From: Hysterangium stoloniferum
Taxonomy: Eukaryota; Basidiomycota; Agaricomycetes; Hysterangiales; Hysterangiaceae
DNA length: 64,000 bases
NCBI GenBank assembly: GCA_015178975.1
Contig: WHVD01000117.1
Span: forward strand, 124,001-188,000
Direction of reading: 5' to 3'
A model generated the notes under the pieces. The model did no database searches and was not told where the DNA came from. It worked only from the letters and a program-made list of their open reading frames with translations. Each line of letters begins with the position of its first letter. Positions within the stretch are counted from its first letter, which is position 1. The position numbers were made by a program, and so were the translations under genes. Shown here piece by piece: positions 9,887 to 63,413 of the stretch.

Positions 9887-10852
9887 TTATTCATCTACAT
9901 TTATGGGGCTGTGTTTTTTCTCCGCCTCAGCCATCTCCTCAGGGAGCTCCACTATCTCTGTGGGAACCCTGTCCTCATCTGACCTGGCATCCTTGGAACT
10001 CCTGATTTGCAGCTCTTCATACACATAGCCACCATACTCCACCAGGAACTTCCAAAATTCCTCACAGAGCCCGCAAAATTCCCTAGCCACCACTACCTGC
10101 ACCTTGCTGCTCTTCCTAAGCAACTTGTTCTGGGCCTCTATGCCCTCAGTGATCCACCCCAAAACCTCATCTAAACCCAAAAACCCATCCAACCTGCTTG
10201 TTTCCCATGCCACAGACCTCATGGGCTGCTTGTGCACAAGCGAGCACCTCACTTTGAGGTGCGTGCACTGAAAGCACCCCAGTCCCCACCCAGACTTCTG
10301 ATTGCAATCTGTGTTCCAGTCATTACAATCGGAACACCGCGGGTCATTCCTAGTTTGTAGGTGGACTGGTGCCACTTTCCTTGCCTTCTGTTGATGTGGT
10401 TAGTTTCCTGGAACATCTGTGGACCCAAGACTTACCTTTTGGGAGCTCTCCAGCTCCCCCTTGGACTCTGACTCGACCTCTGTCACCTTGCACTGAAAAT
10501 ACTAAGTCAGCTATGTAAGTCGACATATTGTAACTACAGGACTTACCTTTCCCATGGCAACTGCAGCCCTATCTGCAGCTGCCCGGGCTTTCTCCGTGGT
10601 GACCCATGCAGCCTCCTCCTCATCCTTCTTCCTCTGCTCCTCAGCCACTTTCTCCATGGTCAGTGCCACCTGTTACTCCCTATCCAGCTGTTCCTCAGCC
10701 TCCTTGGCCCCTCTCTCTGCCTCCTCTCATTGTCGACACTGTTCCTCCCACTGTGCCAAGATTTGGGCAGCAGTGAGAGGCGCCTGATATTGATTGCCTG
10801 TGGAGGGCCCGGTGGTCAGCATTGGTTTGCATGGTGTTGGTTTGGGACCCAT
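9887..10852 (-). pseudogene. Antisense accessory gene of chromovirus B (three exons, one nonsense mutation)
   Basis: Model on the minus strand: exon 1 10852-10547, exon 2 10492-10436, exon 3 10387-9887, with GTAAGT donors and CAG acceptors. Exon 1 begins MGPKPTP and encodes an E/A/R/K-rich coiled coil; exon 2 is acidic and ends SSQK; exon 3 carries the six-cysteine cluster C-x2-C-x6-C-x9-C-x2-C-x6-C (starting CSDCND near 10345), then a helical C-terminal part ending INVDE. A TGA in the middle of exon 1 (near 10725) breaks it. A minus-strand TATA box (CTATATAAAA, 10901-10910) lies about 50 bp upstream. Same structure as the copies in F, A, C and D; function unknown. Confidence 0.7.
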
Positions 10853-13266: not shown

Positions 13267-14248
13267 TTAGTCATTTAGTATTATAATGGGCCCTGGCTGT
13301 CCTGCCTCCACAAACTCCTTATGCAAGTCTTCGACCTCCTCAGGCCCCACAGATATGTCCATCTCCTTGGATCCCTCAGAATCCCCAGCCTCAGACTCCT
13401 CATAGTCCTTGTAGTCTTTCAGAAATTCCCAGAATAATCTGAGGAAGTCCAGAGTGCAACCTACCAAAGTCCTCCACACATTGTTGCCATCATGCAACAA
13501 AACATTTTGGGCCTCAATGCCCACTGCAATCCACCCCAAAACCTCCTCCAAGGCCCCAGCCTTTCCATGTGACCACCTACTTCCTGGCAACTGGAACCCA
13601 AGGCATCCTGCACCAGTGTGCACTTGGCTTTCAAGTGTGCACATGGCCAACAGCCTGGGCCTCAACTGGTCTTCTGGAAACAATCCACATTCCAGTCATT
13701 ACAACCAGAACACTGCAGCTCATTCTTGGTCTCCAGCCAGGCTGGAGCATTTTCCTGGGCCTTCTGCCATCCATAAGTCAGTTGTACATATATCCATTGA
13801 GGACTGCACACTTACCTTCTGGGGACTACCCTGTTCCCCTTCAGACTCTGTCTTGACATCCACAGCTTTGTGCTATCAGTACTATTAGTAAGGACTTGGA
13901 CCATAAAAATACTTGACTCATCTTTACCACAGCCACCATGGATGCCTTGGTGCACTCCACAGTGACCCAGGCTGCCTCCTTCTCTGCCTCTGCCTTCTTG
14001 GCAGCCACCTCTTCCCCTTCCTTTTTCCTCTGCTCCTTCACCTCTTTTTCCACAGCCAATGCAACCTGGTACTCCCTCTCCAGTACTGCCTCCTCCTCCT
14101 TGGCCTTTCTCTCCTCTTCTTCCCATTGTTGCTGCTGTTCCTCACACTGCACAAGTATCTGTGCAGCTGTGAGTGGAGCCCAGTATGTGGACCCTGTGGG
14201 AGTCCCAGCATTGGTGGTAGTTTTCCACACTGTGGGTTTTGGTCCCAT
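13267..14248 (-). pseudogene. Antisense accessory gene of chromovirus F (three exons, one stop)
   Basis: Model: exon 1 14248-13928 (MGPKPTV start, Glu/Lys/Ala coiled coil), exon 2 13872-13816 (acidic, ending SPQK), exon 3 13763-13267. Introns start GTAAAG and GTAAGT and end ATAG and GCAG. Exon 3 has the six cysteines (CSGCND..., C-x2-C-x6-C ... C-x2-C-x6-C), but an in-frame TGA lies between the third and fourth cysteine near 13673, so the copy is dead. TATA box TATATAAAAA on the minus strand at 14301-14310. Confidence 0.7.
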
Positions 14249-20871: not shown

Positions 20872-20873
20872 GT

Positions 20874-20884: not shown

Positions 20885-20908
20885 TCACACTCGCATTTTC
20901 CGTTAATC

Positions 20909-25580: not shown

Positions 25581-26419
25581 TGTTACGACCGGACAATCCC
25601 GCCGGACTCCGGGCACTAACCCGTACACCCCCACGCGCTACAAGCACCAATCGTCTGTTTATAGGATTTCCCGCCCAGACTCCGTTATGTCAAGACTCGT
25701 TACGTTCAACCTCATTACGATACATATCAGTCACCAGACTTCCCCCAGACTCCGTCTCTGTCTATGTCCGTCTTCTTCCCACGCATCAGTCACTGGTCCC
25801 CGCTTAGAATCCCGTCACCGCTCTAATCGAGCCCCATTCCCGTTTTAGTCAAATGACCTGTCACGATTTAGGACTCCGCTCCCACTCCATTTCCCGTTAT
25901 GGGTTATGCTTTGTCACGATTTGGACTCCGCTCCGTTCTGTTCCGTTCCTAACACCAATTTGGTGTTTACTATTCCCGTTTCATGTTTTGTTAGTTTTCG
26001 TTTCATTATTACTGGATTTGGTATGTCATGCATTCCACGGTCTATATAAACTGGCAGATGTTGTACATACAATCCAGTCAGAAAATTAGCTTAGATTCCC
26101 CCCAGTAATCTAATAATATTTTCCGCTCTAAAACCTTACTCAATTCACATCGCTCGCACTAGTCGGAGCCCACAGGCTCTGGCGCATCTATCTCTCTCAA
26201 CCAGCTCGACTCATGACCCACGACCTCTGACTTACGACCCACGACCCGACTTACGACCTACGACCCATGAACCCCGCCCGGACTCCCCGGGATCCCCGTC
26301 CGTCCGTTTGAAATTGGACAACACGATCTAGCGAGGGCACAGCCTATAAGCTGAAGCCAAGTCCTACCGGATATCCCGCGGGTTTCTCCGGAAACCTGGC
26401 CTGTGTGTGTATCCTAACA
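25581..26419 (+). repeat. 5' LTR of chromovirus A
   Basis: TGTTACGACC...CCTAACA. TATA box TATATAA at 26043-26049, 33 bp before AGTCAGAAAAT (26076-26086), the putative mRNA start. U5 hairpin motif CAGCCTATAAGCTGAAGCC ends at 26358. Confidence 0.93.
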
Positions 26420-26421
26420 GT

Positions 26422-26432
26422 ATTTTCTGACT
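26422..26432 (+). other. Self-priming primer binding site, chromovirus A
   Basis: ATTTTCTGACT, 2 nt after the LTR, is an exact 11-nt reverse complement of AGTCAGAAAAT (26076-26086) at the expected transcript 5' end. Confidence 0.78.
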
Positions 26433-26455
26433 AATACTCGCAGATTGTTTTCATT

Positions 26456-27748: not shown

Positions 27749-27783
27749 GCAACCCCGCGGACTCCGCGCGGGTTAGGGGTTGC
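27736..27783 (+). promoter_or_regulatory. Probable -1 ribosomal frameshift signal between gag and pol (A)
   Basis: GAAAAAA (27736-27742), spacer GAGTAA including the gag stop, then an 8-bp stem GCAACCCC (27749-27756) / GGGGTTGC (27776-27783). Pol is in the -1 frame. The equivalent stems in C and D differ in sequence but keep pairing. Confidence 0.62.
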
Positions 27784-30700: not shown

Positions 30701-31472
30701 GGAACAATACCTCCGCGTATATTGCAACTACCAACAGGACAATTGGAAAACCTTGTTACCACTTGCAGAGTTTGCTTACAACAATGCACCCTCGGCCACT
30801 ACTGGCATTTCCCCGTTCTTTGCAAATAAAGGATATAATCCAAATATTACAGTACATCCAGAACAAAATCTCGCCTCTGTTCGTGCTCAAGAGTTCACCA
30901 CGGACCTCCACGAGCTCCACGAGGAACTCCGGACTGCAATATTGTCCGCCCAAGAGCAATACCAACATTCAGCGGACAAACACCGGATCCCGCCACCCAA
31001 CTTCAAGATTGGCGACCGTGTTTATGTCAAAGCTCAATTCTTCCGGACTACCCGTCCATCAAAGAAGCTTGCTGAAAAATATTTAGGTCCGTTTGAAATT
31101 ATCACACAAGTAGGTTCAGTTTCTTGGACCCTACAGCTTCTGGATAGCATGTGTGCGGTACACCCAGTATTTCATGTTTCTATGCTTGAACCTTGTACTG
31201 CTAACACTATCCCGGATCGCATGCAATCTCCGCCTCCTCCTGTCATCATTGATGGAGAACCCGAGTTTGAAATCTCACAGATTTTAGATTCAAAAATAGA
31301 CAAGCGTCGACACACTTGTAAACTGCTTTACTTGGTCAAGTGGGCGGGTTACAAGGGCACCGATGAAGAAACCTCATGGATTTTGGCCACGGAACTCGGT
31401 AATGCCACGGAAATCGTTACTGACTTTCATACAGCTTACCCACTCAAACCTGGACCATTATCTTCTCTCTGA
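27745..31472 (+). pseudogene. pol of chromovirus A (one frameshift, one TGA)
   Basis: Protease (DSGSTHCFLD near 27909), RT ([16 protein letters not shown] near 28725; YLDDI near 29046), RNase H (ETDASDYA near 29485), integrase zinc region (YKHDHPLS near 30177; CKSCTTC near 30288), integrase core (MDFIEH near 30390, then a site reading SNRGSEF where C and D have SDRGSKF, so the second catalytic aspartate appears to be Asn; E in QTERVNQTLE near 30680), GPF/Y (YLGPFEI near 31080), chromodomain (about 31260-31450). A 1-nt loss just after YLDDI (about 29056) shifts frame and TGA 30324-30326 replaces the arginine of SQRHKPYG. Inactive for several independent reasons. Confidence 0.88.
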
Positions 31473-31681
31473 CCACACTCCACGGACCCCGTGTTACGTT
31501 TGGACTCATTTTCATTATTCCCTGTCGCCCTATGTCTCTCTTTGCTTTTACAGGTTCTGACATGTCTTGTCAAGTCTTTAAGCGGACTCTCTGTGGACTT
31601 TGCTTTGACTTTTATTTTTTTATGTTTTCACACTTTACTTTTATGTTCAAATTATTATCAAGTTTTATTATTTCTATTGTA

Positions 31682-32664
31682 TTATTCATCTACTTCTTTG
31701 GGGCTGTCCTTTTTCCCCGCCGCCTCAGCTACTTCCTCAGGAAGCTCCGCGACCTCCGCGTCAACCCCGCCCTCATCTGATCCGGCATCCTCGGAACTCC
31801 CGATTTGTGGCTTCTCATAAACATAGCCACCATACTCCACCAGGAACTTCCAAAATTCCTCGCGGAGTCCGCACAGCTCCTTCGCCACCACTATGTGGAC
31901 CTTGTTGCTCTTCCGGAGCAACTCGTTTTGGGCCTCAATGCCCTCGGCGATCCGTCCAAGGACCTCGTCCAACCCGGACAACCCGTCCGTTCCACTTATG
32001 TCTCGCGTCCCGGACCCCGTGGCCTGCTCGTGCACAAGCGAGCACCTCGCCTTGAGGTGCGCGCATTGGTAACATCCCGGCCCCCGGCCGGCCTTTCGGT
32101 TGCATTCCGTGTTCTGGTCGTTGCAACCGGAACACTGCGGCTCGTTCCGCGTCGGAAGACGGACTGGCGCCGCCTTGCCTTCTGTTGATATGGTCAGTCT
32201 CCGCGGGTATTCCACGGACATGAGGCCTACCTTTTGGGGGCTCTCTGGCTCCCCCTCGGACTCGGACTCCACCTCTGTCACTTTGCACTGAAAATCACAA
32301 GTCAGTAAAAGTTCGACAAGTGAAGTTTGGGACTTACTTTTCCCGCAACAATGGCGGCCCTCTCCGCGGCCAACCGGGCTTTCTCTGCAGCCACCCGGGC
32401 ATTCTCCGCGGCCACTTGCACAGCCTCCTCCGCCTCACGTTCCCTCTCCCTTGCGGCCTCTTCCTCCACGGCCAACGCTTCCTGGTACTCTCTGTCCAGG
32501 GCCTCCTCAGCCTCCCTCGCCTCTCTCTCTGCTGCTTCACGAAGCTGGCACTGCTCTTCTCGCCACGCCAACAATTGGGCCGTGGTCCAAGGTGCCCGAT
32601 ACGGAGTGCCCATGGAGGGCCCTGCTATAGGCATTGGCTTGCGTGGTGTTGGTTTTGGTCCCAT
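31682..32664 (-). pseudogene. Antisense accessory gene of chromovirus A (three exons, small indel)
   Basis: Exon 1 32664-32338 (109 codons, MGPKPTPRK then an E/A/R-rich coiled coil ending AGK), intron GTAAGT...TTTTCAG, exon 2 32287-32231 (acidic, ending SPQK), intron GTAGGC...CAACAG, exon 3 32181-31682 with the six-cysteine cluster (CSGCND, C-x2-C-x6-C-x9-C-x2-C-x6-C, about 32040-32135) and a C-terminal helical/acidic part ending KEVDE. Relative to B there is a 4-nt deletion at the start of exon 3, so the spliced frame is disturbed; the reading frame stays open only if intron 2 is kept. TATA-like CCTATATAAAAA on the minus strand at 32715-32726. Role unknown. Confidence 0.7.
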
Positions 32665-32874
32665 AGTGACGAAGATGGGGGTAATGAAGAAGAAGAAATT
32701 TCTATTTTTTCAAATTTTTATATAGGCTCATCGTGTTTGAACCTTACCTTCCAGATCACATGACTCTTTGACACATATGTGTAACCGACATGACTTTTGA
32801 CACATGCGCGTAGCCGACAAGAACCTTATTTAGGTCTAGAGCCTCTTTGGGACTTCGGCATAAAGGGAGGATAC

Positions 32875-33713
32875 TGTTACGACCGGACAATCCCGCCGGA
32901 CTCCGGGCACTAACCCGTACGCCCCCACGCGCTACAAGCACCAATCGTCTGTTTATAGGATTTCCCGCCCGGACTCCGTTATGTCAAGACTCGTTACGTT
33001 CGACCTCATTACGATACATATCAGTCACCGGACTTCCCCCGGACTCCGTCTCTGTCTATGTCCGTCTTCGTCCCACGCATCAGTCACCGGTCCCCGCTTA
33101 GAATCCCGTCACCGCTCTAATCGAGCCCTGTTCCCATTTTAGTCAAATGACCTGTCACGATTTAGGACTCCGCTCCCGCTCCATTTCCCGTTATGGGTTA
33201 TGCTTTGTCACGATTCGGACTCCGCTCCGTTCCGTTCCATTCCTAACACCAATTTGGTGTTTACTATTCCCGTTTCATGTTTTGTTAGTTTTCGTTTCGT
33301 TATTACTGGATTTGGTATGTCATGCATTCCACGGTCTATATAAACTGGCAGATGTTGTACATACAATCCAGTCAGAAAATTAGCTTAGATTCCCCCCAGT
33401 AATCTAATAATATTTTCCGCTCTAAAACCTTACTCGATTCACATCGCTCGCACTAGTCGGAGCCCACAGGCTCTGGCGCATCTATCTCTCTCAACCAGCT
33501 CGACTCATGACCCACGACCTCTGACTTACAACCCACGACCCGACTTACGACCTACGACCCACGAACCCCGCCCAGACTCCCCAGGATCCCCGTCCGTCCG
33601 TTTGAAATTGGACAACACGATCTAGCGAGGGTGCAGCCTATAAGCTGAAGCCAAGTCCTACCAGATATCCCACGGGTTTCTCCGGAAACCTGGCCTGTGT
33701 GTGTATCCTAACA
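32875..33713 (+). repeat. 3' LTR of chromovirus A
   Basis: 839 bp, TGTTACGACC...CCTAACA, preceded by the polypurine tract and followed by the duplicated CAGTG. U5 motif at 33633-33652. It keeps CpGs at several sites where the 5' LTR has CpA or TpG. Confidence 0.93.
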
Positions 33714-34126
33714 CAGTGCACCCGGTATTTCATGTATCTATGTTAGAACCTTGTGTTCCTAACAGTATACCCGATCGCATACAACCACCACCTCCACCCG
33801 TGATTATTGATGGGGAACCCGAATTCGAGATATCAGAGATCCTAGACTCAAAAATCGACAATCGCCGACGCTCATGCAAATTACTTTATTTGGTCAAATG
33901 GGCTGGCTATGAAGGTACAGATGAAGAAACTTCATGGATCCTAGCTACAGAGCTCGGTAATGCCTCGGAAATCGTTTTAGGGTTTCACCAAGCTTATCTG
34001 AACAAACCCGGTCCTCTCAATTCTTTATAAGTCTATCACGCGGTACCCGACCTTTTTCCGACTATGCCTTATGTTTTCACGCTATGATTTGTTTGTTTTA
34101 AAGAAAAACCGATATAATTTCATTAT

Positions 34127-35047
34127 CTAAGTTTCTCCCTCTACAACTTCTCCCTCCTCTCCGGCCTCCGAACCCTCCTCCGCACCGACAGCCACCGATA
34201 CCACACCACCGACCTTCTCCGAAACCCCAATTTCATGCCCATCACAACTCGAGACTTCCAAATACTGCTCAAGTTGACCACCGAGAGACTCGATAACACT
34301 GGTCTGTTTCTCCAGCCCGACGCCCAAGAGTCGCAATTGCTCAGTTATGAGCCCTTGTTGTCGCAACGTCTCATATCGGAACCGACTCGTCTCCAAGAAG
34401 TAGGTCTGCATGAGGCAGTTTTGCTCTTCTAGAGCATCGGCCTGTCGCTCCTGGAATGAACCATCGGCCCCCGGGAAAACACACCCAAGCTTCTGATTGG
34501 CGCACTCTTGACAAGTGCGGCCCCGACCATTGGTCCGGGGATGACAGGTTCGACCCCGTTTCGTGCACTGATTGCACTTGGGGTCATTTTCGGGCCCCGC
34601 CTTGGGGGCCTGCTTTTGTTTCTATAGGAAAAATTAGGGAAGTTTTATTTAAGGAAATCGAACCCACCTTGGGGCTCGACGGCCCCAGTGCATCCTCCTC
34701 GTCCTCCTCTCCCTCTTCATCATCAGACTCCGAAGGCGTTGCAGCCTTGCGCTAACAAACATTGTCAGTAAGGTTCGCAAAAGAAACCAGAGCCGACTTA
34801 CCTTTCCCTCCCGCTTCTTTTTCGCCACCTCCTCCCATGCCCAATCGGCCTCCTGCTGCTTGTTCTTTGCAAGCACTGCTTCCCAGTGCTTGCGCGCAGC
34901 CTCTTCTGCCGCCTGTTTCTTCTCCTCGGCCTCGATGGCCGCCAACTCCTCCTTCTCCTTCCGCTCCTCCTCTTCACGCACCTTTTTCTTCTGCTCGAGT
35001 ATACGCCGACGCTCCTTCGCGTTCGCCGTACCACTCGGCACCGACAT
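34127..35047 (-). CDS. Antisense accessory gene of chromovirus C: coiled coil plus six-cysteine (Zn2Cys6-like) protein, intact
   Basis: Exons 35047-34802, 34751-34668 and 34621-34127 join in frame to give about 274 residues with no stop. The start is taken at MSVPSG because MTIGSG (35101) lies farther from the shared plan. Residues ~15-80 form a very charged coiled coil (E/K/A/Q); exon 2 is acidic (SESDDEEGEEDEED) and ends SSPK; exon 3 opens KQKQAPKAG, followed by six cysteines spaced C-x2-C-x6-C-x10-C-x2-C-x6-C (about 34485-34590), then a helical tail and an acidic end. The spacing equals fungal Zn(II)2Cys6 clusters, though few basic residues follow the first Cys pair. It lies antisense between pol and the polypurine tract with TATA-like CATATAAAAG at 35151-35160. 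Likely nucleic-acid or partner binding; function inferred only. Confidence 0.72.
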
Positions 35048-35274
35048 GGGCGCAACTGTTAACCTAACCGGGAAGGGTTTTGACCCCGAGCCTATGGTCA
35101 TGGTGGTTAAAGGAAGGGAAGTAAAATTTCAAGCGCCAGGAACCCTCAAACTTTTATATGCAAAATTTTGCCGAGTCACATGATGTTTTGACACACCCAG
35201 CCATACCCGACAGGTTTTACGTACGGGATCTAGATTTTCGGCCTCCTTGGGATTTCGGCCAAAAGGGGAGATAC

Positions 35275-35996
35275 TGTTACGACCGTGTCGCAACCCTATC
35301 GGTCCCGAAGTTATCGCCACTTGTCAACGTTTCAAGTCATCCTCTCAGAAACCATCGGCCCCGAAGCTGACAAATGTTTTCGCAAAGATCAAACTCCATT
35401 TACGCGCACTTCAAAATAACTCGTATTGTCTGGTCAAACTTTGATACGTCCCCTTTATTATGTTGATCCGTCCAATCTTATGTTTCGCATATGTCTATCT
35501 ATATTTGTAGTCCTTGAACTATTTCCTTTTATCGTAATCCCGCTCTCGGTTATCATCGGCCTCCGAACTAATCATAAACTTCCCGTTCCTAGTCAAGCTT
35601 ATTGTTAATACCGTGTTCCGCCCTTCTCCCCATTAGTATTTTCCAGACGCCTGTTACTTGTATATGAACCCGCTGTAGTTGTAGTCACTAGGCAATCAGA
35701 ATATCGACTCAGAATACCCTCATATGCCTGTATCAGTCTCATACTAAGAATCCCCCCATCTGCCTTCGCGTGCGCTCGCCCACTCCCGGCCCCGACCCCT
35801 TGGCCCGACGCTCGACTTGTCCTTCGATTCCGATCGGTATCACGCCGAAAGGTACTCATTAGGATTAGTCTTCGCCCGCCCGAAATTTAAGGACATCCTA
35901 CGGATATTTGCGAGGGCGCAGCACATAAGCTGAAGCCAAGTCCTTCCGATCGGTCCCTGTCGGCCACCGACATTAGTCAGTTTTCAGTTCTTAACA
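35275..35996 (+). repeat. 3' LTR of chromovirus C
   Basis: 722 bp, preceded by polypurine tract AAAAGGGGAGATAC (35261-35274) and followed by the duplicated GCTAT. It differs from the 5' LTR at roughly 2% of positions by eye. Confidence 0.93.
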
Positions 35997-42268: not shown

Positions 42269-45200
42269 ATGGGTGTTTTGAGTAGAGACATCTCTGAAGT
42301 CGTTGAATACTTCAAGCGAGCAGCTCCTAGTCAGGTAAAATGCTGTACTAATGACGAGAATTGAAGTTCAATTCTAACCCTTCTTTAGGCAGGCAGTACG
42401 TCTTAACAGCGCCTAGAACTGAATACACTCATAGTTAATGGTCTAGTTATTTCGGGTGCCAATCCCAGTGTATATAATGCAGCAGATCCGTTTCCGCTAT
42501 GGGTTATCCAGGTGTCCATTATCATATGCTTTACCCAGTTGCTAGGCCTCGCGCTGGCAAGAGTGCGCCAACCTCGCGTTATCGCCGAAGTCCTCGGTGG
42601 GATCATACTCGGGCCAACTGTTATGGGGAGGATTCCAGGCTTTACCAATGCCATTTTCCCACCTCAATCTGTCTCTCTACTTACCCTCACCTCGACGATC
42701 GGACTTGTTCTCTTCCTTTTCCTGATTGGCTTGGAAGTCGACGTTAGAGTCCTCCGGCGCAATGCTAAGTACTCTCTAACCATCTCCGCTGCCGGCATGA
42801 TTCTGCCATTTGCATTGGGAGTGGGCCTGGCTGTTGCTCTTTATCACAAGTTTGTAGCACCAGGCGTAGAGTTCGGGCACTTTCTTCTATTTATCGGTGT
42901 TGCCATCGCCATTACTGCGTTTCCCGTGCTTTGTCGTACGTCCGGGTTCTCTTTTAGATTAACTCCGAATTCTTCATGATTTTAAAACCTTTCTTTCAGG
43001 CATTCTCACCGACCTTAACCTTCTCGAGGACCACGTAGGTGTCATTGTTTTGAGCGCTGGGGTAGGAAACGATGTTGTTGGCTGGGTGAGCTCTTCGTAA
43101 TGCACTTATTGTTGCATTCGCCTAACAAACTCAACCTTCAGATTCTTCTTGCGCTTGCCGTAGCCCTGACAAACGCATCCTCAGGCCTCGCAGCGCTTTG
43201 GATTCTTCTAACGAGCGTCGCCTTCGTCCTTTTTATGGTATATCCGGGCCGTTGGGCATTTGTCTGGCTTGCAAGACGCACGGGTTCTTTGGAAAATGGG
43301 ACTCCCAATCCACTAATGATGACGGTGACGTTACTTGTAATCCTGGGCTCGGCCTTCTTCACCGATGTCATAGGTGAGACATTTTCAATCTGCCGACAGA
43401 GACTAAGCCCTGACCAACAATTTACAGGGATCCATGCAATCTTTGGAGGGTTTATTGCAGGCCTGATCATCCCGCACGAGGGGGGGTTTGCGATCGCTCT
43501 GGTTGAAAAACTTGAAGACCTTGTCTGCATCGTTTTCTTACCTCTCGTAAGCTCCATTATATTTCTTTCCGTATAAGTTTAGAAATAAGCGTCTCATTAG
43601 TATTTCGCTCTTTCTGGACTGAGAACTAACCTGGGGCTGTTAAACGACGGTATAACATGGGCATACATCGTCCTTATCTGTGTCATCGCATTTTTCGGAA
43701 AATTCGTAGGATGTGCGTTGACCGCTAAGCTTATGGGTTTCAGCAACAGGGAGTCTAGCGCGATTGGTACTCTCATGAGTTGTAAAGGGTAAGTCTTACC
43801 TTTCCGGTGCTACAGTTAACTACCATACTTATTTTTCTCTCCCGTTAGCCTGGTAGAACTAATTGTGTTGAACGTTGGGCTTCAAGCTCAGATCCTGGAC
43901 ACAAGGCTTTTCTCGATGTTTGTTGTTCACGCTATTGTCCTCACTGTTATGACTACCCCTTTAACTTTGTGGTGCTATCCCCCACAACACCGCCACGGCC
44001 GCAGTCCCCGAGTGGCCATTGAAAAAAAGACGATCGATGGTCAGGATCGGATCGAAAGTCAAGATCGCCCCCTCGAAGACACGTTCAAATCCAAGTTCTT
44101 AGTCGTGCTCAATAAAATCGAGCATCTGCCAGCCATCATGACTATAATGCAACTATTGCAAACCACACCCAAATCGCCATCGATTATCTCTGGTAGGAGC
44201 ACGTCAACGGAAAAGGATCTGAAGGGCGATGATTCTCGGGATATTACTCAGGACAGAGATCTTCCGGAGTCCCCCAACTCCAAACCCCGTCCTGAAAACA
44301 TCCACCGGCCCGTCACGATTAATGCGCTCCGTCTGATGGAGTTAACGGACCGTACATCCACGGTGATGAAATCTTCTGAGGCTGACGATCTAATCTTGCG
44401 AGACCCCCTTGTATCTGTTTTCTTCGCCTTTGGGAGGCTTCTTAACATTGCTATTGCGAGCACTATGTCAATCGGACATCAAGACTCGTTGGCAACGACC
44501 GTTGCTGGCCATGCGCGAGACAATGGCTCACAAATGGTCATTGTTCCGTGGCAGGTCGCCAAATCAAACGTCTTGCCCGAGGAGCTAGCACACGGACCTT
44601 CGATACCTCCTGAGACTACGTACAATCCTTTTGAGGGAATGTTCGGGAAGGCATCGGGATCGGAACGAGGGACTTCTGTCGTATACGAGAATTTTATTCG
44701 TAAAATTTTTGCAGAATCTCCCGTGGATGTTGGACTATTTGTGGATCGAGGCACGCCTGCCTCTGGGCATCAGCACGTATTTTTCCCATTTTTTGGCGGC
44801 CCAGACGATCGTCTAGCGTTGCGATTTGTGGTGCAGCTTTGCGCGAATGACAATGTGACTGCTACCATCGTCAGGGTAACGAAGTCAGTTAATTCACAAG
44901 GGGCGAATACGGAGACTGTAGCTAGCACTGAGACCCCAGAGAATTCAAAGGTGGGCGTGAGTACCCCGTTTGCATCTTACCTCACGTTGCATTAATAAAT
45001 TACTTTAATTGCGTAGGCGGCGGCGTTTGCGGATACGATATATGCCCCGCAGAATACCCAGACCCGTATTGCCTCGGACACTGCGGACAACATCGTGTGG
45101 CTACGGTATGCTAAACATGCGACGGCGCCGCACAGCCAGCTCTCGCCTCAGGCCCGTTCTGCGATGCGGCGTATAACCTTTTCAGAGACATCGTCGCCGC

Positions 45201-50593: not shown

Positions 50594-50733
50594 TTAAGGC
50601 AGTGCACGCACAATTTAAGGCAGTGCACGCACAATTTAAGGCAGTGCACGCACAATTTAAGGCAGTGCACGCACAATTTAAGGCAGTGCACGCACAATTT
50701 AAGGCAGTGCACGCACAATTTAAGGCAGTGCAA
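50594..50733. repeat. 21-bp minisatellite, about 6.7 copies
   Basis: Unit TTAAGGCAGTGCACGCACAA plus T, repeated nearly perfectly from 50594 to 50733. As 21 is a multiple of three, a minus-strand frame through it reads a 7-residue repeat (CTALNCA), but nothing else supports coding. Confidence 0.93.
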
Positions 50734-51666: not shown

Positions 51667-51739
51667 GATTGGATACAACCAGAATTTTCCGTCCGCCGTA
51701 AGGCACAAAGCCGACCATGCTTCTGACGAAGCGGAGACT

Positions 51740-51919
51740 AGTAAGAGTGCCGCACGATCCCTGGCATGCCGGGAGAAGTTCGGCACTCAACGTCCAGCCG
51801 AGCGTACGAAGGATTCTCACGCCTTTTGTTTTCTGCGACGACTCTGTCGCTCTAGTCTTTAAAAATTTTACGTTCAATTGATGCATTATCATTTTTTAAA
51901 AACATTTCTAATTATTTAG
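51740..51919. repeat. 180-bp dispersed repeat, copy 1
   Basis: Nearly identical to 63001-63180, including the short inverted repeat CGACGACTCTGTCG and the AT-rich end. Its left edge falls at GTAAGAGTGCC and its right edge at CTAATTATTT. Confidence 0.85.
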
Positions 51920-52317
51920 ATCTCACACCATAAGGTCTAGATCCTTGCCACAATGGGTCTTTGTGCACTTGGGTGGAGAGAGGCACCCACCTCATGCAGA
52001 GGCGGGGTTTGGGGCCATAACACCTGGGGATCCCAGATCATTCAGTAGTACCACCAACAAGGCTGTTAGAAATGGTGGGGAGATAGCCTGGTTGATGGCA
52101 CACAGGCACCAGTTACTAAATGGCAGTAACTATGAGGAACAAGAGGGGAGACCTATGGCAGATGCTTCACCAGGCAAAATGAATTTGTTCACAAACCCAG
52201 AAACACCACAAGGGGTCAACGCTGCAACATCACCAACTGAAGAAACCTGGGGCAATAGAAGACTCCAATCCCTGAAATTATACCAGGGTTTAAGGCAAAC
52301 TCCTGAGAAATCCACAG

Positions 52318-52556
52318 TTTAGCTGCATTGTGGAATGCATGCAGCTCATTACAGATGGTTTGGCTGTGTTGTGGAATGCGCGCAGCTCAACACAGACAGT
52401 GTAGCTGCGTTGTGGAATGCATGCAGCTCAGTACAGACCGTTTCGCTACATTGCGGAATGCACGCAGCTCAATACAGACAGTGTAACTATGTTGCAGAAT
52501 GTGTGCAGCTCAGTACAGACAGTTTAGCTGCATTGTGGAATGCATGCCAGACAGTT
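52318..52556. repeat. 41-bp minisatellite, about 5.8 copies
   Basis: Imperfect tandem units of 41 bp of the form TTTAGCTGCATTGTGGAATG followed by CATGCAGCTCATTACAGATGG (split here for length), varying mostly by C/T and A/G transitions. Confidence 0.85.
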
Positions 52557-55212: not shown

Positions 55213-55775
55213 TGTTACGACCCGTTCCCGGATGTTTCAATATCCGACTTCCGATCTCCCACTTTCGATATCCGATATCCGACTACGGAACATCATAGTT
55301 ACCGTATCATCCGTGTTCTTCGTTTGTTCCGCATTTGGTAATTTGTCCGTTGACAAGTATTCACTCGTTTGTTGTTGTATTCCCGTCTCGGAATATTGTC
55401 TTCCTAATATGTCTTATTGTATTTCCGTTTTAAGAATACTTCCGTTTCCATCTTATTATGGTCTCAGTTTGTAGTACAATAACGAGTAGACTTATATTAG
55501 TTTCCGCGAATTTGTACTTTACTTTAGATCTGATATCGACTTAGTTTCTTATTCCTCCTCCCGTCTTTCTGTACGCTCGATATTTGGAACTCTTCAGAAC
55601 TCTGAATATCCATATCTTCCGTCGTTAGTTCACTTCCGAAATTAAGGACATTGAGCGTTTGTGTAGAGGTGCAGCACATAAGCTGAAGCCGACGTCCTGA
55701 CCCTATCCACGAGTTTCCGACTTCCTGGTGACTTCCCGATAGTTCCGGAATAAGTTCCCGACACGGCACTTAACA
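55213..55775 (+). repeat. 5' LTR of chromovirus D
   Basis: TGTTACGACCCG...CTTAACA, 563 bp. A TATA-like TTATATTA at 55492-55499 lies 34 bp before AGATCTGATAT (55526-55536), the putative mRNA 5' end. U5 motif GCAGCACATAAGCTGAAGCC at 55671-55690. Confidence 0.93.
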
Positions 55776-55777
55776 GT

Positions 55778-55788
55778 ATATCAGATCT
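55778..55788 (+). other. Self-priming primer binding site, chromovirus D
   Basis: ATATCAGATCT, 2 nt after the LTR end, is the exact reverse complement of AGATCTGATAT at 55526-55536. Confidence 0.77.
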
Positions 55789-55809
55789 CAACTCTGCGAC
55801 TCGCTCATC

Positions 55810-57036
55810 ATGGGTCCCAAACGCAAAGCTGCCGAAGGACCATCCCAACTTCAATCCCCGTTGCAACTTTACACCACCCAACCCGAAACCCCAATTCAGC
55901 CGACAACATCAGCTTCAATCGAAGAAGTTACTGAGGAGGTTACCGAGGTAATGAAGGATCCCAATGATCCCCATACTTCCGACAACGAAGCAGAAGATCA
56001 GCCGGAGACATCAAAAAAGAAATCTCCCGACGAACCGACTGAAATGTTGTTTATCAACTCCATTGTGAAATTCGCTGACTATTTGAAATCCGCTGAGGAT
56101 AGCAAAGAATCATCCCGCACCGGAGTCAAAGAACCCGAACCATTTACCGGCAAGGATCCGAAAAAATTGAAGAATTTCCTTCTTCAATGCCGTTTCAGTT
56201 TCCGTGATCAACCCAATGCTTTTAAATCCGACAGTCGAAAAGTCAATTTTGCGCTCTCATATCTCAAGGATACCGCTCAGGATTGGTTCGAACCCGGACT
56301 ATCCGGAATATCCGACGAGACACCCGTATGGCTCGACGACTGGGATGCTTTCGTGGAAGAACTGGAAACTAATTTCGGACCTTACGATCAATCCGGCGAA
56401 GCAGAAAACGAACTAATGACGCTCAAGATGAAGGACAATCAACGAGTTTCCGATTATCTCATCAAGTTCAATACCCTCGCCGCACGATGTGGATGGGACG
56501 ATTCCGCCCTCAGGCACCATTTCTATATGGGACTTCCGTCACACCTTAAAGATGAAATCTGCAAAGATGGGAAGCCAAAAACTCTCCAACTCATGCGGAT
56601 GAAAGCTCAAACATCCGATGCCCGTTATTGGGAACGAAAAGCCGAGGTTTCTCGAGAGAACCTGACGGAACATTCTCAGAACAACAAGGCATCAACTAGC
56701 AAGTCTTCCGGCAACAACTCAGGCAATAATACCGGCTCTGGCACTAATACTGGCAAATCAAATTCCGACCGGAAGAAAGACAAGAAATCCAATAAGGAAA
56801 AACAGTCAACTTCCGACAAACCCGACATTTCCCATTTGTTGGGTACCGACGGTAAACTCACCCCGAAGGAGAAACAACGACGTATGGACAACAACCTCTG
56901 CCTTTTCTGCGGGAAAGGCGGACACAAGGTTTCCGACTGTACCGTTAAATCCAGCTCTTCCAAGGCTCGTGCGGCAACTTCCACTACGACTACGACGTCT
57001 AAGGAAAAACCCGCCACGGAGTCAAAAAAAGAGTAA
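55810..57036 (+). CDS. gag: Gag polyprotein of chromovirus D
   Basis: 408 residues from ATG 55810 (MGPKRKAAEGPS), 22 nt after the primer site, to TAA 57034-57036. The N-terminal ~100 residues are acidic and low-complexity. A capsid-like helical domain spans roughly residues 105-280 (EPFTGKDPKKL, NFALSYLKDTAQDWFEPG, RVSDYLIKFNTLAARCGW). A Ser/Asn/Lys-rich linker follows, then a perfect CCHC zinc knuckle (CLFCGKGGHKVSDC, about 56899-56940). It would assemble the virus-like particle and bind genomic RNA in the cytoplasm. The only uninterrupted gag in the window. It ends inside a probable -1 frameshift signal leading to pol. Confidence 0.93.
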   Translation: MGPKRKAAEGPSQLQSPLQLYTTQPETPIQPTTSASIEEVTEEVTEVMKDPNDPHTSDNEAEDQPETSKKKSPDEPTEMLFINSIVKFADYLKSAEDSKESSRTGVKEPEPFTGKDPKKLKNFLLQCRFSFRDQPNAFKSDSRKVNFALSYLKDTAQDWFEPGLSGISDETPVWLDDWDAFVEELETNFGPYDQSGEAENELMTLKMKDNQRVSDYLIKFNTLAARCGWDDSALRHHFYMGLPSHLKDEICKDGKPKTLQLMRMKAQTSDARYWERKAEVSRENLTEHSQNNKASTSKSSGNNSGNNTGSGTNTGKSNSDRKKDKKSNKEKQSTSDKPDISHLLGTDGKLTPKEKQRRMDNNLCLFCGKGGHKVSDCTVKSSSSKARAATSTTTTTSKEKPATESKKE

Positions 57037-57071
57037 GCAACCCTCCGGAATCTGCACGGACAGAGGGTTGC
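57024..57071 (+). promoter_or_regulatory. Probable -1 ribosomal frameshift signal between gag and pol (D)
   Basis: Canonical heptamer A AAA AAA in the gag frame (57024-57030), spacer GAGTAA (the gag stop) of 6 nt, then a 9-bp stem GCAACCCTC (57037-57045) / GAGGGTTGC (57063-57071) with a 17-nt loop. The pol frame is -1 and has no ATG between here and the protease active site. Confidence 0.72.
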
Positions 57072-60000
57072 GTTGACTCTCTCCGTGTTTCCGAGGTTGT
57101 CCGTCTCAATGCGTCTGCTCTCTCTAATCCCGATTCATTATTTGTAAAACTCGTCTCTGACTTTCTTGGAAATTTAGTGTTCCGAGCTCTAATAGATTCC
57201 GGCTCCACACACTGTTTTGTAGATACCACCTTTGCCACGAAACATAATCTGAAACTCCATTCTGTTCCCGCAATTTCCTTGCGTTTGTTTGACGGCACTA
57301 GCAATACGGCAATTACTCAAGCCTGCGACATGTCTATCTGGTTCCCTTGTGGAACATCCCAGACTGTTACATTTTTCATAACACAGTTGGACTCTAGCTG
57401 TTCGGCAGTTCTTGGATACAACTGGCTCACCCGATATAATCCGTTGATTGACTGGGTATTGGGCAGTATTACTTTCCGGACTCCCGACACTTCCGTTCCT
57501 CCTGCAGCGTCTTTTCCGGCCAACGCCTTTTCGGCATCAACGGCATCTCCGGCTTCTATCGAAACTTCCGAGCCCCCAAAAATCTCTCTCATCAACGCTT
57601 CAGCATTTGTTAGGGCAAGTAAACTGGATGGCTCGCAATGTTTTTCGATCAGCTTAAAAGTTGATGAAGCATCTGGACGTTTTGCGACTCCAGAATTATC
57701 CGAGCTAAAAGCCGATCTGGAAGGAGTTCCCGAAAAATACCATGATTTCGCGGACATTTTCAGTAAGCAAAAAGCTGACAGGCTTGCACCACATAGGCCT
57801 TACGACTTAAAAATCGATATTGAGCCTGGTTCAAACCCTCCGTTAGGACCTATTTACCCATTATCCCAATTGGAACTTTCGTCTATTCGGGAGTTCCTGG
57901 ATGAACATCTGTCGATAGGTTTTATCCGTCCCTCAAAGTCTCCGTATGGAGCACCCGTCCTTTTTGTCCGAAAAAAGGACGGCTCTCTTCGACTCTGTGT
58001 CGATTTCAGAGGGTTAAATTCCATCACATGGAAAGATAAGTATCCACTCCCACTCGTTACCGACTTACTCGACGCCCCACGGAAAGCTCAAATTTACACC
58101 AAAATAGACCTCAAACACGCCTATCATTTGGTCCGAATTGCCAAGGGTGACAAATGGAAAACTGCTTTTCGGACTCGCTATGGATCCTTTGAATGGTTGG
58201 TTATGCCATTCGGCCTTACCAACGCCCCTTCCGCTTTTCAACGTTTTGTTAATGATATATTTTCCGACATGCTTGACGTATGTGTTATAGTCTATTTGGA
58301 CGACATTTTGGTATTTTCCGAGGATCTTGCTCTTCATGATGAACAGGTCCGTGAAGTCTTCCGAAGACTCCGTAAAAACGGTCTTTTTGCCAACGGTAAA
58401 AAATGTTATTTCGACATGGATTCTATTGAATACTTAGGTTTCATCATCGGCCCTGATGGTCTCCGTATGGATGAAACCAAGGTTCAAGTTGTCCGTGACT
58501 GGCCCGAACCACGGAAGGTCAAGGACATTCAATCATTTTTAGGTTTCACCAACTTTTACCGTCGTTTTATTCGGAACTACTCGGATATTACAGTACCGCT
58601 CACTCATCTTACCCGTAAAACTCAACCATGGGTTTTTGACGACAAATGCCGCTCCGCCTTCCAGACTTTAAAAAATGCTTTCACTTCTGCCCCAATCCTT
58701 TCCCATTGGAAACCTGATTTTCCGATTATTGTGGAAACCGATGCTTCCGATTATGCAATTGCCGCGATTCTTTCCATTCAAGAGTCCGACGGTGAAATTC
58801 ATCCGGTCGCATTTCTTTCTCGGACACTTTCAGTATCCGAACTCAATTACGACGTTCATGATAAGGAACTTTTGGCAATTTTTGAAGCTTTCAAACATTG
58901 GCACCATTATCTCGAAGGTTTCGCAACTCCCGTTGACGTCGTTACCGATCACAAAAATCTCGAATATTTTTCTACCACTAAACTTTTAACCCGCCAGCAG
59001 GCCCGTTGGTCTGAATTTCTTTCCGCTTTCAACATGATTATCCATTTCCGACCCGGACGTCTTGGTGGAAAACCAGATGCCATGACTCGACGATGGGACG
59101 TCTATCCTAAAGAGGGGGAAAGTAACTATGCTGTTGTTAATCCACATAACCTGAAACCGGTTTTTACAACGCAACAACTTTCCGCATCTATCTGAGCAAC
59201 TTCCCTTTACTATCCAATTATGCGTAGCGTCATGATTATGGACATTGAGCAATTACATCAAGATATCCTTTCCGCACTCACTTCCGACCCGGCCCTCAAG
59301 CCACATTTAGAAGTTCCCGACAATCCCAACCAACCCCGATGGTCACAAGACTCTCAAGGTTTTATCCGTCTCGATGGACGTATCTACGTTCCAGATTCCA
59401 ACAATCTCCAACTCCACATACTTCAGTATAAACATGATCATCCAATCTCCAGACATTATGGCATCAACAATACTCTTGGTTTAATCCGTAGAGAATACAC
59501 TTGGCCCAACCTCCGAGATTTCGTAACTCAGTTCTGTAAGTCATGCACCACCTGCTTACGCTCCAAAACCCAGAGGCATATGCCGTACGGCCTTCTCAAG
59601 CAACTCCTGATACCAGAAAAACCTTGGAATTCAATTTCCATGGATTTCATCGAACAACTCCCGACTTCCGAAGGCTTTACATCCATTCTAGTCGTTGTGG
59701 ACCGATTCTCGAAACAAGGCATTTTCATACCCACTCATGATACAATCACGTCCTTACAATTAGCGGAACTTTTCATTATTCACGTATTTTCCAAACACGG
59801 AGTTCCATCTCACGTAACTTCCGATCGAGGCTCCAAGTTCGTCTCCCATTTCTTCCAGGCCCTCGGAAAAGCCCTCGACATGAAACTACACTTCACCTCG
59901 GGATATCACCCGGAAGGTGATGGACAAATGGAACGTGTTAATCAAACATTGGAACAATATCTCCGCATCTATTGTAATTATCAACAGGACAACTGGAAAT

Positions 60001-60722
60001 CCCTTCTTCCGATCGCGGAATTCGCCTACAATAACTCTCCGAATGCAACCACCGGCATATCTCCCTTCTTCGCCAATAAAGGCTATAATCCGAATCTCAC
60101 AGTACATTCCGAACGAGATTTGGCTTCTGTCCGTGCTCAAGAATTTATTACTGACCTCGACGAATTACATCAAGAACTTCGGAAAGCTATTTCTTCCGCA
60201 CAGGAACATTATCAACGCTCCGCGGACAAAAACAGGATCCCGCCTCCTAATTTTAAAGTTGGTGATCAGGTTTTTGTAAAAGCTCAATTCTTCCGTATTA
60301 CCCGACCTTCTAAAAAACTCGCTGAGAAATTCTTAGGACCTTTCGAAATTATAGCACAAGCCGGCTCACTTTCATGGACTCTCCGTCTTCCCGACAGTAT
60401 GCGAGCAGTCCACCCCGTTTTCCACGTTTCCATGTTAGAACCTTGTGTTCCTAACTCATTCCCGGAACGTATTCAACCTCCGTCCCCTCCGGTCATCATT
60501 GATGGAGAACCTGAATTCGAAGTTTCCGAAATTTTGGATTCTAAAATCGACAATCGCCGACGTACTTGTAAATTGCTCTATTTAGTCAAATGGGCAGGTT
60601 ATGAAGGTACCGACGAGGAAACTTCATGGATATTGGCCACGGAACTTGGACATGCTATGGAAATTGTTACTGACTTCCACACAGCTTATCCAGGCAAACC
60701 CGGATCTTTATCATCACTTTAA
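57030..60722 (+). pseudogene. pol of chromovirus D: PR-RT-RNase H-integrase-chromodomain, single TGA
   Basis: The frame is open from the frameshift site to TAA near 60722 except TGA 59193-59195, where relative C has an arginine (SIRAT). Protease DSGSTHCFVD near 57195; [18 protein letters not shown] near 57975 and YLDD at 58293-58304; RNase H ETDASDYA near 58735; integrase zinc region (YKHDHPIS near 59430, CKSCTTC near 59537); integrase D-D-E (MDFIEQ near 59641, SDRGSKF near 59820, E of MERVNQTLE near 59930); GPF/Y (FLGPFEI near 60333); chromodomain (FEVSEILDSKID near 60515 to ETSWILATEL). All catalytic residues I checked are present, so one base change separates it from an open frame. Normally made as a Gag-Pol fusion. 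Confidence 0.9.
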
Positions 60723-60807: not shown

Positions 60808-61941
60808 CTATCTCAAAGTCTCTGACACCCCAAATCCGCCTTCCACTTCATCTCCTGCAACCTCCGCACTTTCCACCATATCCTGTACCTCCTCATCTTC
60901 ACTCTCCTCTTTTCCCGACCCCCATCTCTGCTCCACACACTCCGCCAATGGATTGTTCGGCTGGTTTTTTGCCTTATCGGCAAATCGTTCGGATACCGCG
61001 ATTACACCGATACTAACCATCATCTTCTCCAGGAAATCGTTTTGCCTCCGGAAATTCCGGACCAACAAACGGAAACCCTTCTCCTGGATCTCATTATGGC
61101 GATCCAGTGTTTCCCGCATTTCCCGCATCTCAACCCCGATGAAGACCATTGTATTGACCAATTCCTTAAGGAGCTCAACACCCATACCATCCGTACTCGG
61201 CACCTTAGTTTCCGCAGTTTTGGTCGCTCCTGAACCTTCCGCGATGGTAGGTTTTTGAGCCTTTTCACTTTTCGGAACCCTTTTCGCAGCAAGAGTGCAC
61301 GGAAGTTTGAGGACCGCGCAAGGATAACAAGTTCCACCCCATTTTACCTTCTGTTTCCAACAAGTTATATTCCGTACGGAACATCGAGCACATGGAGTGT
61401 CATGGGCAATTTCCATCCGTTCCGGAGCCTTGACCTTTTGTTTCTGTTTCGAAAGATTAGTCAATTACCGACCTTTTGTAGATGCACTTACTTTAGGACT
61501 CGAAGGCCCAGCTTCTCCCTCTACTTCCACCTCCACGGCTTTTCGCTGTACGCAACAGTTATCGGTTGGAACCACGGAAATCTATGGAATCGGACTCACC
61601 TTTCCTTCCCTTACCTCCTTACGTTTTTCCGCCGCCTCAGCTTCTTGTTGTTTCTTCACTTCTTCTTCCTTCAACCTCCAATCCTCCATCACTTTCCGCA
61701 ACCTCGCCAACTCTTTTTCTTTTTCTGCCTTCGCCCGCTCCAATTCCCGTTTTTCCGCCTCCTCCGCATCCTTCAACTCCTGCATCAACGCTCTTTCCTC
61801 CTCCTCCTGTCGTCGCTTCAACTCCTCCATTTTCTGGCGTTTTTGTTGAAGTTCTGCGACCTTCGACATCTTTTGAAGTACAGATATTTCAGTATCTGAG
61901 TCTTCCGGGGTAGTGATGAATAACGGCCGACGAATCGACAT
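60808..61941 (-). CDS. Antisense accessory gene of chromovirus D: coiled coil plus six-cysteine (Zn2Cys6-like) protein, intact
   Basis: Exons 61941-61600 (114 codons), 61545-61492 and 61443-60808 join in phase 0 to about 343 residues. Donors GTGAGT and GTAAGT, acceptors TACAG and ACAG, with a CTAAT branch-like site in intron 2. Exon 1 begins MSIRRPLFIT and contains an almost uninterrupted E/K/R/Q/A coiled coil (residues ~30-110). Exon 2 is acidic and ends SSPK. Exon 3 starts KQKVKAP and carries C-x2-C-x6-C-x10-C-x2-C-x6-C (CARCSV..., about 61300-61390), then helical segments (VELLKELVNTMVFIGVEMREM) and an acidic tail. Convergent with pol (stop 60722) and driven, by position, from TATA-like GAGTATAAAAACC at 61988-62000. 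Not Env: no signal peptide or membrane segment. Function unknown; a regulatory or nucleic-acid-binding role is inference. Confidence 0.75.
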
Positions 61942-62125
61942 ACAAGTCGTGGATAAAGAAACAAAAACGTTAATTCGAATATTTGGAGGTTTTTATACTC
62001 AGAATAATAACCGAAACTCTCACCTCCATAATTGCGTAAATTTCACGACACATAACAGTCAGCCGTCGCTTCAAACACTCAGTACCTAATCGCCTCTATG
62101 GGATTTCGGCCTAACAGGGGGGTAC

Positions 62126-62688
62126 TGTTACGACCCGTTCCCGGATGTTTCAATATCCGACTTCCGATCTCCCACTTTCGATATCCGATATCCAACTACG
62201 GAACATCATAGTTACCGTATCATCTGCGTTCTTCGTTTGTTCCGCATTTGGTAATTTGTCCGTTGACAAGTATTCACTCGTTTGTTGTTGTATTCCCGTC
62301 TCGGAATATTGTCTTCCTAATATGTCTTATTGTATTTCTGTTTTAAGAATACTTCCGTTTCTGTCTTATTATGGTCTCAGTTTGTAGTACAATAACGAGT
62401 AGACTTATATTAGTTTCCGTGAATTTGTACTTTACTTTAGATCTGATATCGACTTAGTTTCTTATTCCTCCTCCCGTCGTTCTGTATGCTCGATATTCGG
62501 AACTCTTCGGAACTCTGAATATCCATATCTTCCGTCATTAGTTCACTTCCGAAATTAAGGACATTGAGCGTTTGCGTAGAGGCGCAGCACATAAGCTGAA
62601 GCTGACGTCCTGACCCTATCCACGAGTTTCCGACTTCCCAGTGACTTCCCGATAGTTCCGGAATAAGTTCCCGACACGGCACTTAACA
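62126..62688 (+). repeat. 3' LTR of chromovirus D
   Basis: 563 bp, preceded by the polypurine tract (ACAGGGGGGTAC, about 62114-62125) and followed by the duplicated GGCAC. Confidence 0.94.
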
Positions 62689-62894: not shown

Positions 62895-63413
62895 GTGAGC
62901 GGTGAGTCTTCCCACACATACGCAGAGAGCTAACGCTCTCCCCCTACCCAACCATACAACTGCTCGTACAGTATACATGACATAGTAGATGAAGCTGGAT
63001 AGTAAGAGTGCCACACGATCCCTGGCATGCCGGGAGAAGTTCGGCACTCAACGTCCAGCCGAGCGTACGAAGGATTCTCACACCTTTTGTTTTCTGCGAC
63101 GACTCTGTCGCTCTAGTCTTTAAAAATTTTACGTTCAATTGATGCATTGTCATTTTTTAAAAACATTTCTAATTATTTTACCCACCCACCCTCGCCCTTT
63201 AAGCTGAGGACAGTAGTGTTAAATCAGTTATCATTCCCAGAATTATTATATTGGATAATAATGGATTAATAATGCGAGAGTTGTAACGTATGAGGAGACC
63301 CGCCCTCCCGAGCGGCGAGTCTTCCCACGCATACGTGGAGAGCTAATGCTCTCCCCCTACCCAACCATACAACTGCTCGTACAGTAGACATGATGTAGTA
63401 GATGAAGCTGGAC
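62895..63413. repeat. Direct repeat pair (about 105 bp each) flanking dispersed repeat copy 2
   Basis: 62895-63000 and 63308-63413 are about 90% identical, each with a palindromic GAGAGCTAAYGCTCTC and the run CCTACCCAACCATACAACTG. Between them lies 63001-63180, the second copy of the 180-bp repeat at 51740, then an AT-rich unique stretch. Confidence 0.8.

Follow-up and report, generated by a model that had tools for sequence, protein, structure and literature searches.

Antisense genes have been described in several long terminal repeat (LTR) elements. In plants, additional open reading frames (ORFs) of the aORF-3R kind are carried by Grande (gene23), RIRE2, Retand and PvRetro13 (PMC7264820). 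A promoter of its own and a nuclear product are described for gene23 (PMC7264820), and the antisense protein of Retand, a non-chromovirus whose proteins contain a TRP28 domain, is predicted to bind DNA (PMC11963269). Except for the SMC domain of PvRetro13 and the TRP28 domain of Retand, no clear similarity of aORF proteins to other proteins had been described (PMC7264820). In fungi, Boty of Botrytis cinerea combines a gag-pol containing a CHROMO domain with an extra antisense gene, brtn (as cited from Zhao et al. 2011), and a gene of this kind has also been reported for Sclerotinia (PMC8365987, PMC4227169, PMC7264820). HBZ of HTLV-1 and APH-2 of HTLV-2 are antisense-encoded nuclear proteins, and the antisense promoter of HTLV lies in the 3' LTR (PMC11963269, PMC7264820). 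Here we analyze an antisense gene of chromoviruses (Ty3/gypsy elements with a chromodomain) in a 64-kb stretch of the Hysterangium stoloniferum genome (contig WHVD01000117.1, positions 124,001 to 188,000; hereafter the window). As judged from the sequence, the results support a gene that is antisense, spliced, protein-coding and under purifying selection, and common to families with largely unlike LTRs.

The gene is an additional antisense ORF located between pol and the 3' LTR and present in most of the copies checked, two of the properties that characterize aORF-3R; a third is transcription from an own promoter, for which the TATAAA at -56 to -58 is a candidate element. Like brtn, it is an additional antisense gene of a fungal Ty3/gypsy element with a CHROMO domain; brtn, however, belongs to an ascomycete element and was compared by its description. 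In contrast to the Retand proteins, the antisense proteins gave no TRP28 (PF04195) among their Pfam matches at E up to 1 or up to 10, and the word "intron" appears nowhere in the main text of PMC11963269. The likeness to HBZ and APH-2 is that of antisense-encoded nuclear proteins of an LTR element (the nuclear location being predicted here), whereas the protein is unrelated and the element class is different. Antisense genes at the same place were already known in plant Ty3/gypsy elements and in the fungal chromovirus Boty, and the statement of the preliminary description that no such fungal chromovirus gene was known is not supported in view of brtn. The features that seem to be new, as far as the surveyed literature shows, are the presence of the gene in chromoviruses of a basidiomycete, its pair of conserved introns, the fixed TATA box, the Zn2Cys6-like cluster and the apparent exchange of a cassette. 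Among the titles and abstract openings listed and the passages surveyed (from PMC11963269, PMC2864245, PMC7264820, PMC5408684, PMC8365987 and PMC4227169), no account was found of an antisense gene that is spliced or contains a zinc cluster in chromoviruses of basidiomycetes.

Structure and conservation of the antisense gene

Five chromovirus 3' ends (A, B, C, D and F) are present in the window, each with a minus-strand gene between pol and the 3' LTR:

60808..61941, minus strand: D antisense gene; three exons, ATG at 61941, 343 amino acids, no stop in the frame
61992..61997, minus strand: TATAAA, 56 nt before the D ATG; kept in 37 of 38 other copies
61600..61941, minus strand: D exon 1; 114 codons, N-terminal charged, coiled-coil-like part ending ...VREGK
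61546..61599, minus strand: D intron 1; 54 nt, GTGAGT...ACAG, phase 0, with a stop if read through
61492..61545, minus strand: D exon 2; 18 codons, RKA...SSPK, part of a likely bipartite nuclear signal
61444..61491, minus strand: D intron 2; 48 nt, GTAAGT...ACAG, phase 0
60808..61443, minus strand: D exon 3; cysteine cluster, linker, coiled coil and acidic tail
61297..61392, minus strand: D six-cysteine cluster, C-x2-C-x6-C-x10-C-x2-C-x6-C
60964..61191, minus strand: D C-terminal long helix, exon-3 residues 85-160, a probable coiled coil
34127..35101, minus strand: C antisense gene; exons 35101-34802, 34751-34668 and 34621-34127, introns of 50 and 46 nt, 292 amino acids, intact
35158-35153, minus strand: TATAAA upstream of the C ATG
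31682..32664, minus strand: A antisense gene; all splice sites retained, reading frame disrupted close to the start of exon 3
9887..10852, minus strand: B antisense gene; same exon layout, two in-frame stops in exon 1
13267..14248, minus strand: F antisense gene; decayed, with a stop within the cysteine motif

The preliminary description had claimed such a gene for every chromovirus whose 3' region survives, the phase-0 introns being placed after xGK and after SPK/SQK. The gene and the positions of both introns, which are short, were confirmed in all five 3' regions, but two of the five copies (C and D) are intact. The start of the C gene, previously placed at 35047, had to be moved to 35101, since the ATG at 35101 is kept in 34 of 35 other copies; that at 35047 is internal. 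Inspection by eye showed ATGAGT at donor 1 of F, against GTAAGT in the others, and sequences resembling the branch-site consensus (CTGAC/CTAAY) upstream of both acceptors in A, B and C, and in D upstream of the acceptor of intron 2. When the introns are retained, the D frame ends early. In D, 85 nt separate the stop of the antisense gene from that of pol, and 184 nt separate its ATG from the 3' LTR. The gene does not overlap pol, and the coding constraint on pol cannot account for its conservation.

We then considered the whole genome assembly (111,116,353 bases in 554 contigs). Searches with exon 3 gave 150 scored matches each for the D (of 987 candidates), C (of 453) and B types (of 1352). 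Linkage to pol was surveyed with the best 150 of 2649 chromodomain candidates, 135 of which were checked; the result applies to the families nearest to these. An exon-3 match was found downstream of at least 120 of the 150 chromodomains, this lower bound coming from a comparison with the D-type matches and 27 of the 150 C-type matches. It lay on the opposite strand in all 120, at a distance of 84-184 nt in 119 and 782 nt in one. Fifteen of the remaining 30 were read, and at least a part of the gene was present in 14 and none in one (L094). The gene, whole or in part, is therefore located downstream of 134 of the 135 checked chromodomain copies.

The predicted signals for expression were counted against one reference per family, copies without letters at a site being left out of the count for that site. 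Among 38 D copies, the ATG is conserved in 38/38, donor 1 in 37/38, acceptor 1 in 38/38, donor 2 in 38/38, acceptor 2 in 37/38 and TATAAA at -56 in 37/38. The corresponding values among 35 C copies are 34/35, 34/35, 34/34, 34/34, 32/33 and 34/35 (TATAAA at -57), and those among seven copies of the A type (including A, B and F of the window) are 6/6, 5/6, 6/6, 6/7, 7/7 and 6/6 (TATAAA at -58). With the references included, the spliced gene has an uninterrupted frame over its full length in 24 of 39 copies of D, 17 of 36 of C and 2 of 8 of the A type.

Selection and the encoded protein

Pairwise dN/dS values (nonsynonymous over synonymous divergence) were obtained from 34 D, 24 C and 6 A/B exon-3 frames. 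Five of 39 D loci, 12 of 36 C loci and 1 of 7 A/B sequences were dropped, as they had no open frame of more than 100 codons with the cysteine motif or their exon start could not be placed; loci L001-L008 are duplicates of L009-L016. With rising dS, the ratio was 0.80 (dS <0.03), 0.43, 0.47, 0.33, 0.21 and 0.20 (dS 0.8-1.5) in D, 0.73, 0.42, 0.28, 0.30 and 0.22 in C, and 0.23, 0.26, 0.23 and 0.20 in A/B. The fall with distance suggests that individual copies decay near-neutrally after insertion and descend from lineages under purifying selection. In pairs with dS >0.5, exon 3 gave 0.21 (D) and 0.22 (C), and the corresponding values for the end of pol in these copies were 0.22 and 0.14. The proposal that an antisense-encoded product is under selection is borne out by the exon-3 ratio of 0.20-0.23 at dS >0.5, which is not near 1, together with the conserved splice sites, ATG and TATAAA. 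This ratio was taken between subfamilies, because exon 3 of A, C and D is too diverged for the comparison (20-32% protein identity).

A six-frame control at high divergence gave 0.20-0.21 for the gene frame of exon 3, the freedom of this frame from stops being a result of the way in which frames were selected. The frame that mirrors it on the strand of gag-pol also showed a low ratio (0.28-0.41), but averaged 2.4-5.3 stops per sequence. Ratios of 0.94-1.68 were obtained for the four remaining frames, and the mean number of stops per sequence in the five non-gene frames was 1.8 to 13.4. Some downward bias of dN/dS is likely, since the copies were found by protein similarity. The introns of the same loci served as a partial yardstick, measured as identity to the reference. 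In the A type, the inner introns (0.65-0.70) were kept like the third positions of exon 3 (0.66), with first and second positions at 0.84-0.86; in C, the introns (0.90 and 0.91) resembled third positions (0.90-0.92). In D, intron 2 was the least kept part (0.82), and intron 1 (0.94) was better kept than the third positions of exon 1 (0.89).

All families share the sequence GK|RKA...SP(K/QK)|K across the splice junctions, which is likely a bipartite nuclear signal, and six cysteines. In alignments that were not chosen by the motif, the cysteine codons were kept in 227/228 cases in D (38 other copies), 209/210 in C and 42/42 in the A type (478/480 overall), compared with 0.87, 0.91 and 0.72, respectively, for the other exon-3 codons. 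The spacing of Zn2Cys6 clusters (PF00172) is C-x2-C-x6-C-x(5-12)-C-x2-C-x(6-8)-C. It was found in 18 of 18 aligned sequences, with a central spacer of x9 or x10; those of the sequences that are genome loci had been chosen for the motif. The cluster is followed by a probable coiled coil and an acidic tail in a Gal4-like layout, and the three families share these domains with hhalign probabilities of 95.5-98.2%.

The resemblance to Gal4-type Zn2Cys6 regulators consists of the six-cysteine spacing, the following coiled coil and weak fold matches. The D protein reached 10.4 of the 21 bits of the PF00172 cut-off, and weak matches to this family were found in 12 of 18 members (best E 0.0098). One of two structural models gave no support for a binuclear-cluster fold; the model of the isolated cluster was of low confidence and did not match Zn2Cys6. 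Unlike the Gal4-type regulators, the protein is encoded by a retrotransposon, and its cluster lies in the middle, after another coiled-coil-like stretch; the basic residues usual between the second and third cysteines of Gal4-type proteins are partly missing. A sequence search of solved structures returned five matches, none of them meaningful (best E 2.9). HBZ is a bZIP factor, and no bZIP match was found by Pfam for the antisense proteins.

Neither the spliced D protein nor the three-family exon-3 alignment found a protein elsewhere at E up to 0.001, in a search that needs shared 5-residue words, so that absence elsewhere is not established. The pol of the same element gave 4442 protein matches in the same collection, those named among the 120 listed being from Trametes, Pisolithus, Paxillus, Scleroderma and Armillaria. 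The collection therefore contains basidiomycete elements. The antisense protein differs more between families than pol does. In viral_contigs, no relatives were found with the three-family alignment or with pol.

The elements and their surroundings

The elements carrying these genes have the following features:

55213..55775, plus strand: D 5' LTR; 563 bp, TGTTAC...TAACA, flank GGCAC
62126..62688, plus strand: D 3' LTR; 563 bp, 96.8% identity to the 5' LTR over the aligned stretch, flank GGCAC (5-bp target duplication)
55774..57036, plus strand: D gag open frame; matches to gag and capsid exceed the Pfam cut-off, a CCHC finger match does not
57003..60722, plus strand: D pol; protease, reverse transcriptase, RNase H, integrase and chromodomain, all above the Pfam cut-off
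20150-20871 and 35275-35996: C LTRs; 722 bp, 97.3% identity, 5-bp duplication GCTAT
25581-26419 and 32875-33713: A LTRs; 839 bp, 97.1% identity, 5-bp duplication CAGTG

The Pfam domains, LTRs and 5-bp duplications identify D, A and C as chromoviruses, with Chromo above the Pfam cut-off in the pol of A and C as well. In the D copy of the window, one in-frame stop separates the open stretches 57003-59195 and 59196-60722 of pol. Element A (25581-33713) is nested in element C (20150-35996) with the target duplication CAGTG, and divides the C pol into 21295-25466 and about 33714-34030. The pol at 21295-25466 is therefore the 5' part of C's own pol. The LTRs of A, C and D are largely unalignable, as originally described, with short aligned stretches only (best 59 bp at 81%, 53 bp at 75% and 38 bp at 89%). 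Counts of CGG/CCG in the LTRs were mixed and provide only a lead. The A-family LTR (32875-33713) contains CGGN3CCG, a pattern that Zn2Cys6 factors might bind, five times, four of them as CGGACTCCG; five pairs at any one spacing were reached by 18 of 1000 shuffles.

A Tc1/mariner-like element (18744-20149) with 132-nt terminal inverted repeats (96%) adjoins the 5' LTR of C; its transposase (HTH_Tnp_Tc3_2 and DDE_3) consists of two open stretches with one stop between them. A Na+/H+ exchanger domain (Pfam PF00999) at 42407-42976 probably belongs to a host antiporter gene extending further downstream. Outside the elements, there are a perfect 21-bp tandem repeat at 50594-50732 (6.6 copies) and a 41-bp tandem repeat at 52314-52547 (5.7 copies). 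The window also contains a 179-nt repeat pair with 98% identity (51739-51917 and 63000-63178).

Possible cassette exchange and possible function of the product

Exon 3 occurs in two types within family D, type a (CARCSV) and type b (CYRCSI). D copies with near-identical LTR and pol sequences differed by 0-6% in most 75-nt steps. Between L009 (type a) and L034 (type b), divergence rose to 13, 13, 25 and 36% over the first ~300 nt of exon 3. The cluster-plus-linker part of D is thus an old, diverged island within otherwise near-identical elements. Intron 2 of D also occurs in two unlike types (about 60% identical) between similar exons, with ~30% divergence in the intron-2 step, and these types are combined with either exon-3 type (L009, L018, L033 and L034). 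The mosaic points to recombination between elements. Smaller peaks of divergence, none of which tracks the exon-3 type, were seen near the end of exon 3 (12-13% at step 1050, L009 against the others tested), around the pol stop (up to 11%) and, for some pairs, at a single LTR step close to -300 (12-14%). In pairs with exon-3 dS >0.25, this dS was 2.6 to 5.1 times that of the adjoining pol end (for example 0.335 against 0.066 in D), a ratio exaggerated by the binning of pairs according to exon-3 dS; in the low bin the two were alike (ratio 1.0-1.3). In 132 pairs of type a and type b, the part of the island formed by the cluster had a dN/dS of 0.17, and that formed by the linker and the start of the coil one of 0.61. 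The simplest reading of the sequences would be that recombination, for example template switching, swaps an old recognition cassette between young elements, with both types kept functional. A correlation of LTR with exon-3 divergence was dominated by the outlying copy L013 and was not used; per-copy identities alone were used.

As for the function, we favor, at about even chances, a nuclear DNA-binding regulator that is encoded by the element and acts most likely on the element's own LTR or antisense promoter. Each element would carry a complete fungal-style gene on the strand opposite gag-pol. A promoter with the TATA box between the 3' LTR and the ATG would produce an antisense pre-mRNA in vivo, from which the two short introns would be removed. 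Joining of the exons creates a basic patch, GK|RKA...SP(Q)K|K, at the two junctions, which may direct the product into the nucleus, where it would dimerize through its coiled coils and bind zinc and DNA with the Zn2Cys6-like cluster in the manner of Gal4-type regulators. The acidic tail could recruit the transcription machinery, and the product would tune, by activation or repression, the transcription of its own element. The persistence of introns in a retroelement could be explained by the antisense position of the gene: the genomic RNA is the other strand, and the copied template would never be spliced there.

Other explanations should be considered. The product may be an anti-silencing factor that binds the DNA of its own element and lifts host methylation or heterochromatin, and would then be no ordinary transcription factor. 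VANC proteins of the plant VANDAL transposons provide a comparison for such a role. Sequence-specific DNA binding and cassette exchange would fit it equally well. In addition, TGA accounts for 12 of the 14 in-frame stops in exon 3 of 80 aligned genome copies, and motif changes, inspected by eye, are often R to W or Q; both are expected of the decay of methylated CpG, and suggest that the host may methylate these elements. Pfam, on the other hand, found no chromatin or enzyme domain apart from sporadic weak matches, each confined to one or two members, for example DUF5380 (E 0.0037, 1/18) and Glyco_transf_18 (0.086, 1/18), and we regard this explanation as unlikely. A role as an accessory of integration or nuclear import, in which the product accompanies the pre-integration complex into the nucleus or tethers it to chromatin, appears to us quite unlikely, since pol already possesses a chromodomain, a known type of tether, and the product of a separate antisense mRNA would not be packaged by default. 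The likely nuclear signal and the DNA-binding motif would nevertheless suit this role, which has been suggested for plant antisense ORFs (PMC7264820).

It would also be conceivable that only the antisense RNA matters, forming double-stranded RNA with the gag-pol transcript for copy-number control, and that the reading frame is incidental. Convergent transcription would yield complementary RNA, and some elements are regulated by antisense RNAs (PMC7264820). The codon-level constraint in the gene frame and the near-invariant splice sites and cysteine codons, however, already disfavor this explanation, which we consider very improbable. Recent capture of a host gene by one lineage is hardly credible: the gene stands beside nearly all of the checked chromodomain copies, and intron positions and domains are common to three families with largely unalignable LTRs, so that the single-lineage origin named in the preliminary description as a way to refute its proposal does not apply. 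Since Zn2Cys6 regulators are common host genes in fungi, the ultimate origin may still be a host gene.

Returning to the element-encoded regulator, the DNA target of Gal4-type proteins is set by the cluster, linker and coil, and the island in D may therefore represent an exchange of specificity. We tentatively put forward, as a possible but doubtful extension, that a sequence-specific Gal4-like factor acts on the LTRs of its own element, that its recognition cassette, made up of cluster, linker and coil start, passes as one piece between otherwise near-identical elements, that families diversify and compete by switching specificity, and that the intron-bearing genes survive because they are antisense.

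For years, LTR elements have been known to carry antisense accessory genes, whose function has not been established. The present gene has a TATA box and introns that are conserved, encodes a candidate DNA-binding motif of the zinc-cluster kind and occurs in hundreds of copies in one fungal genome, so that its function is directly testable. Genome annotation could misread genes of this type as repeats or as zinc-cluster genes of the host. In these chromoviruses, introns are kept inside a retroelement, plausibly through their antisense position, and a regulator domain is seemingly exchanged as a cassette.
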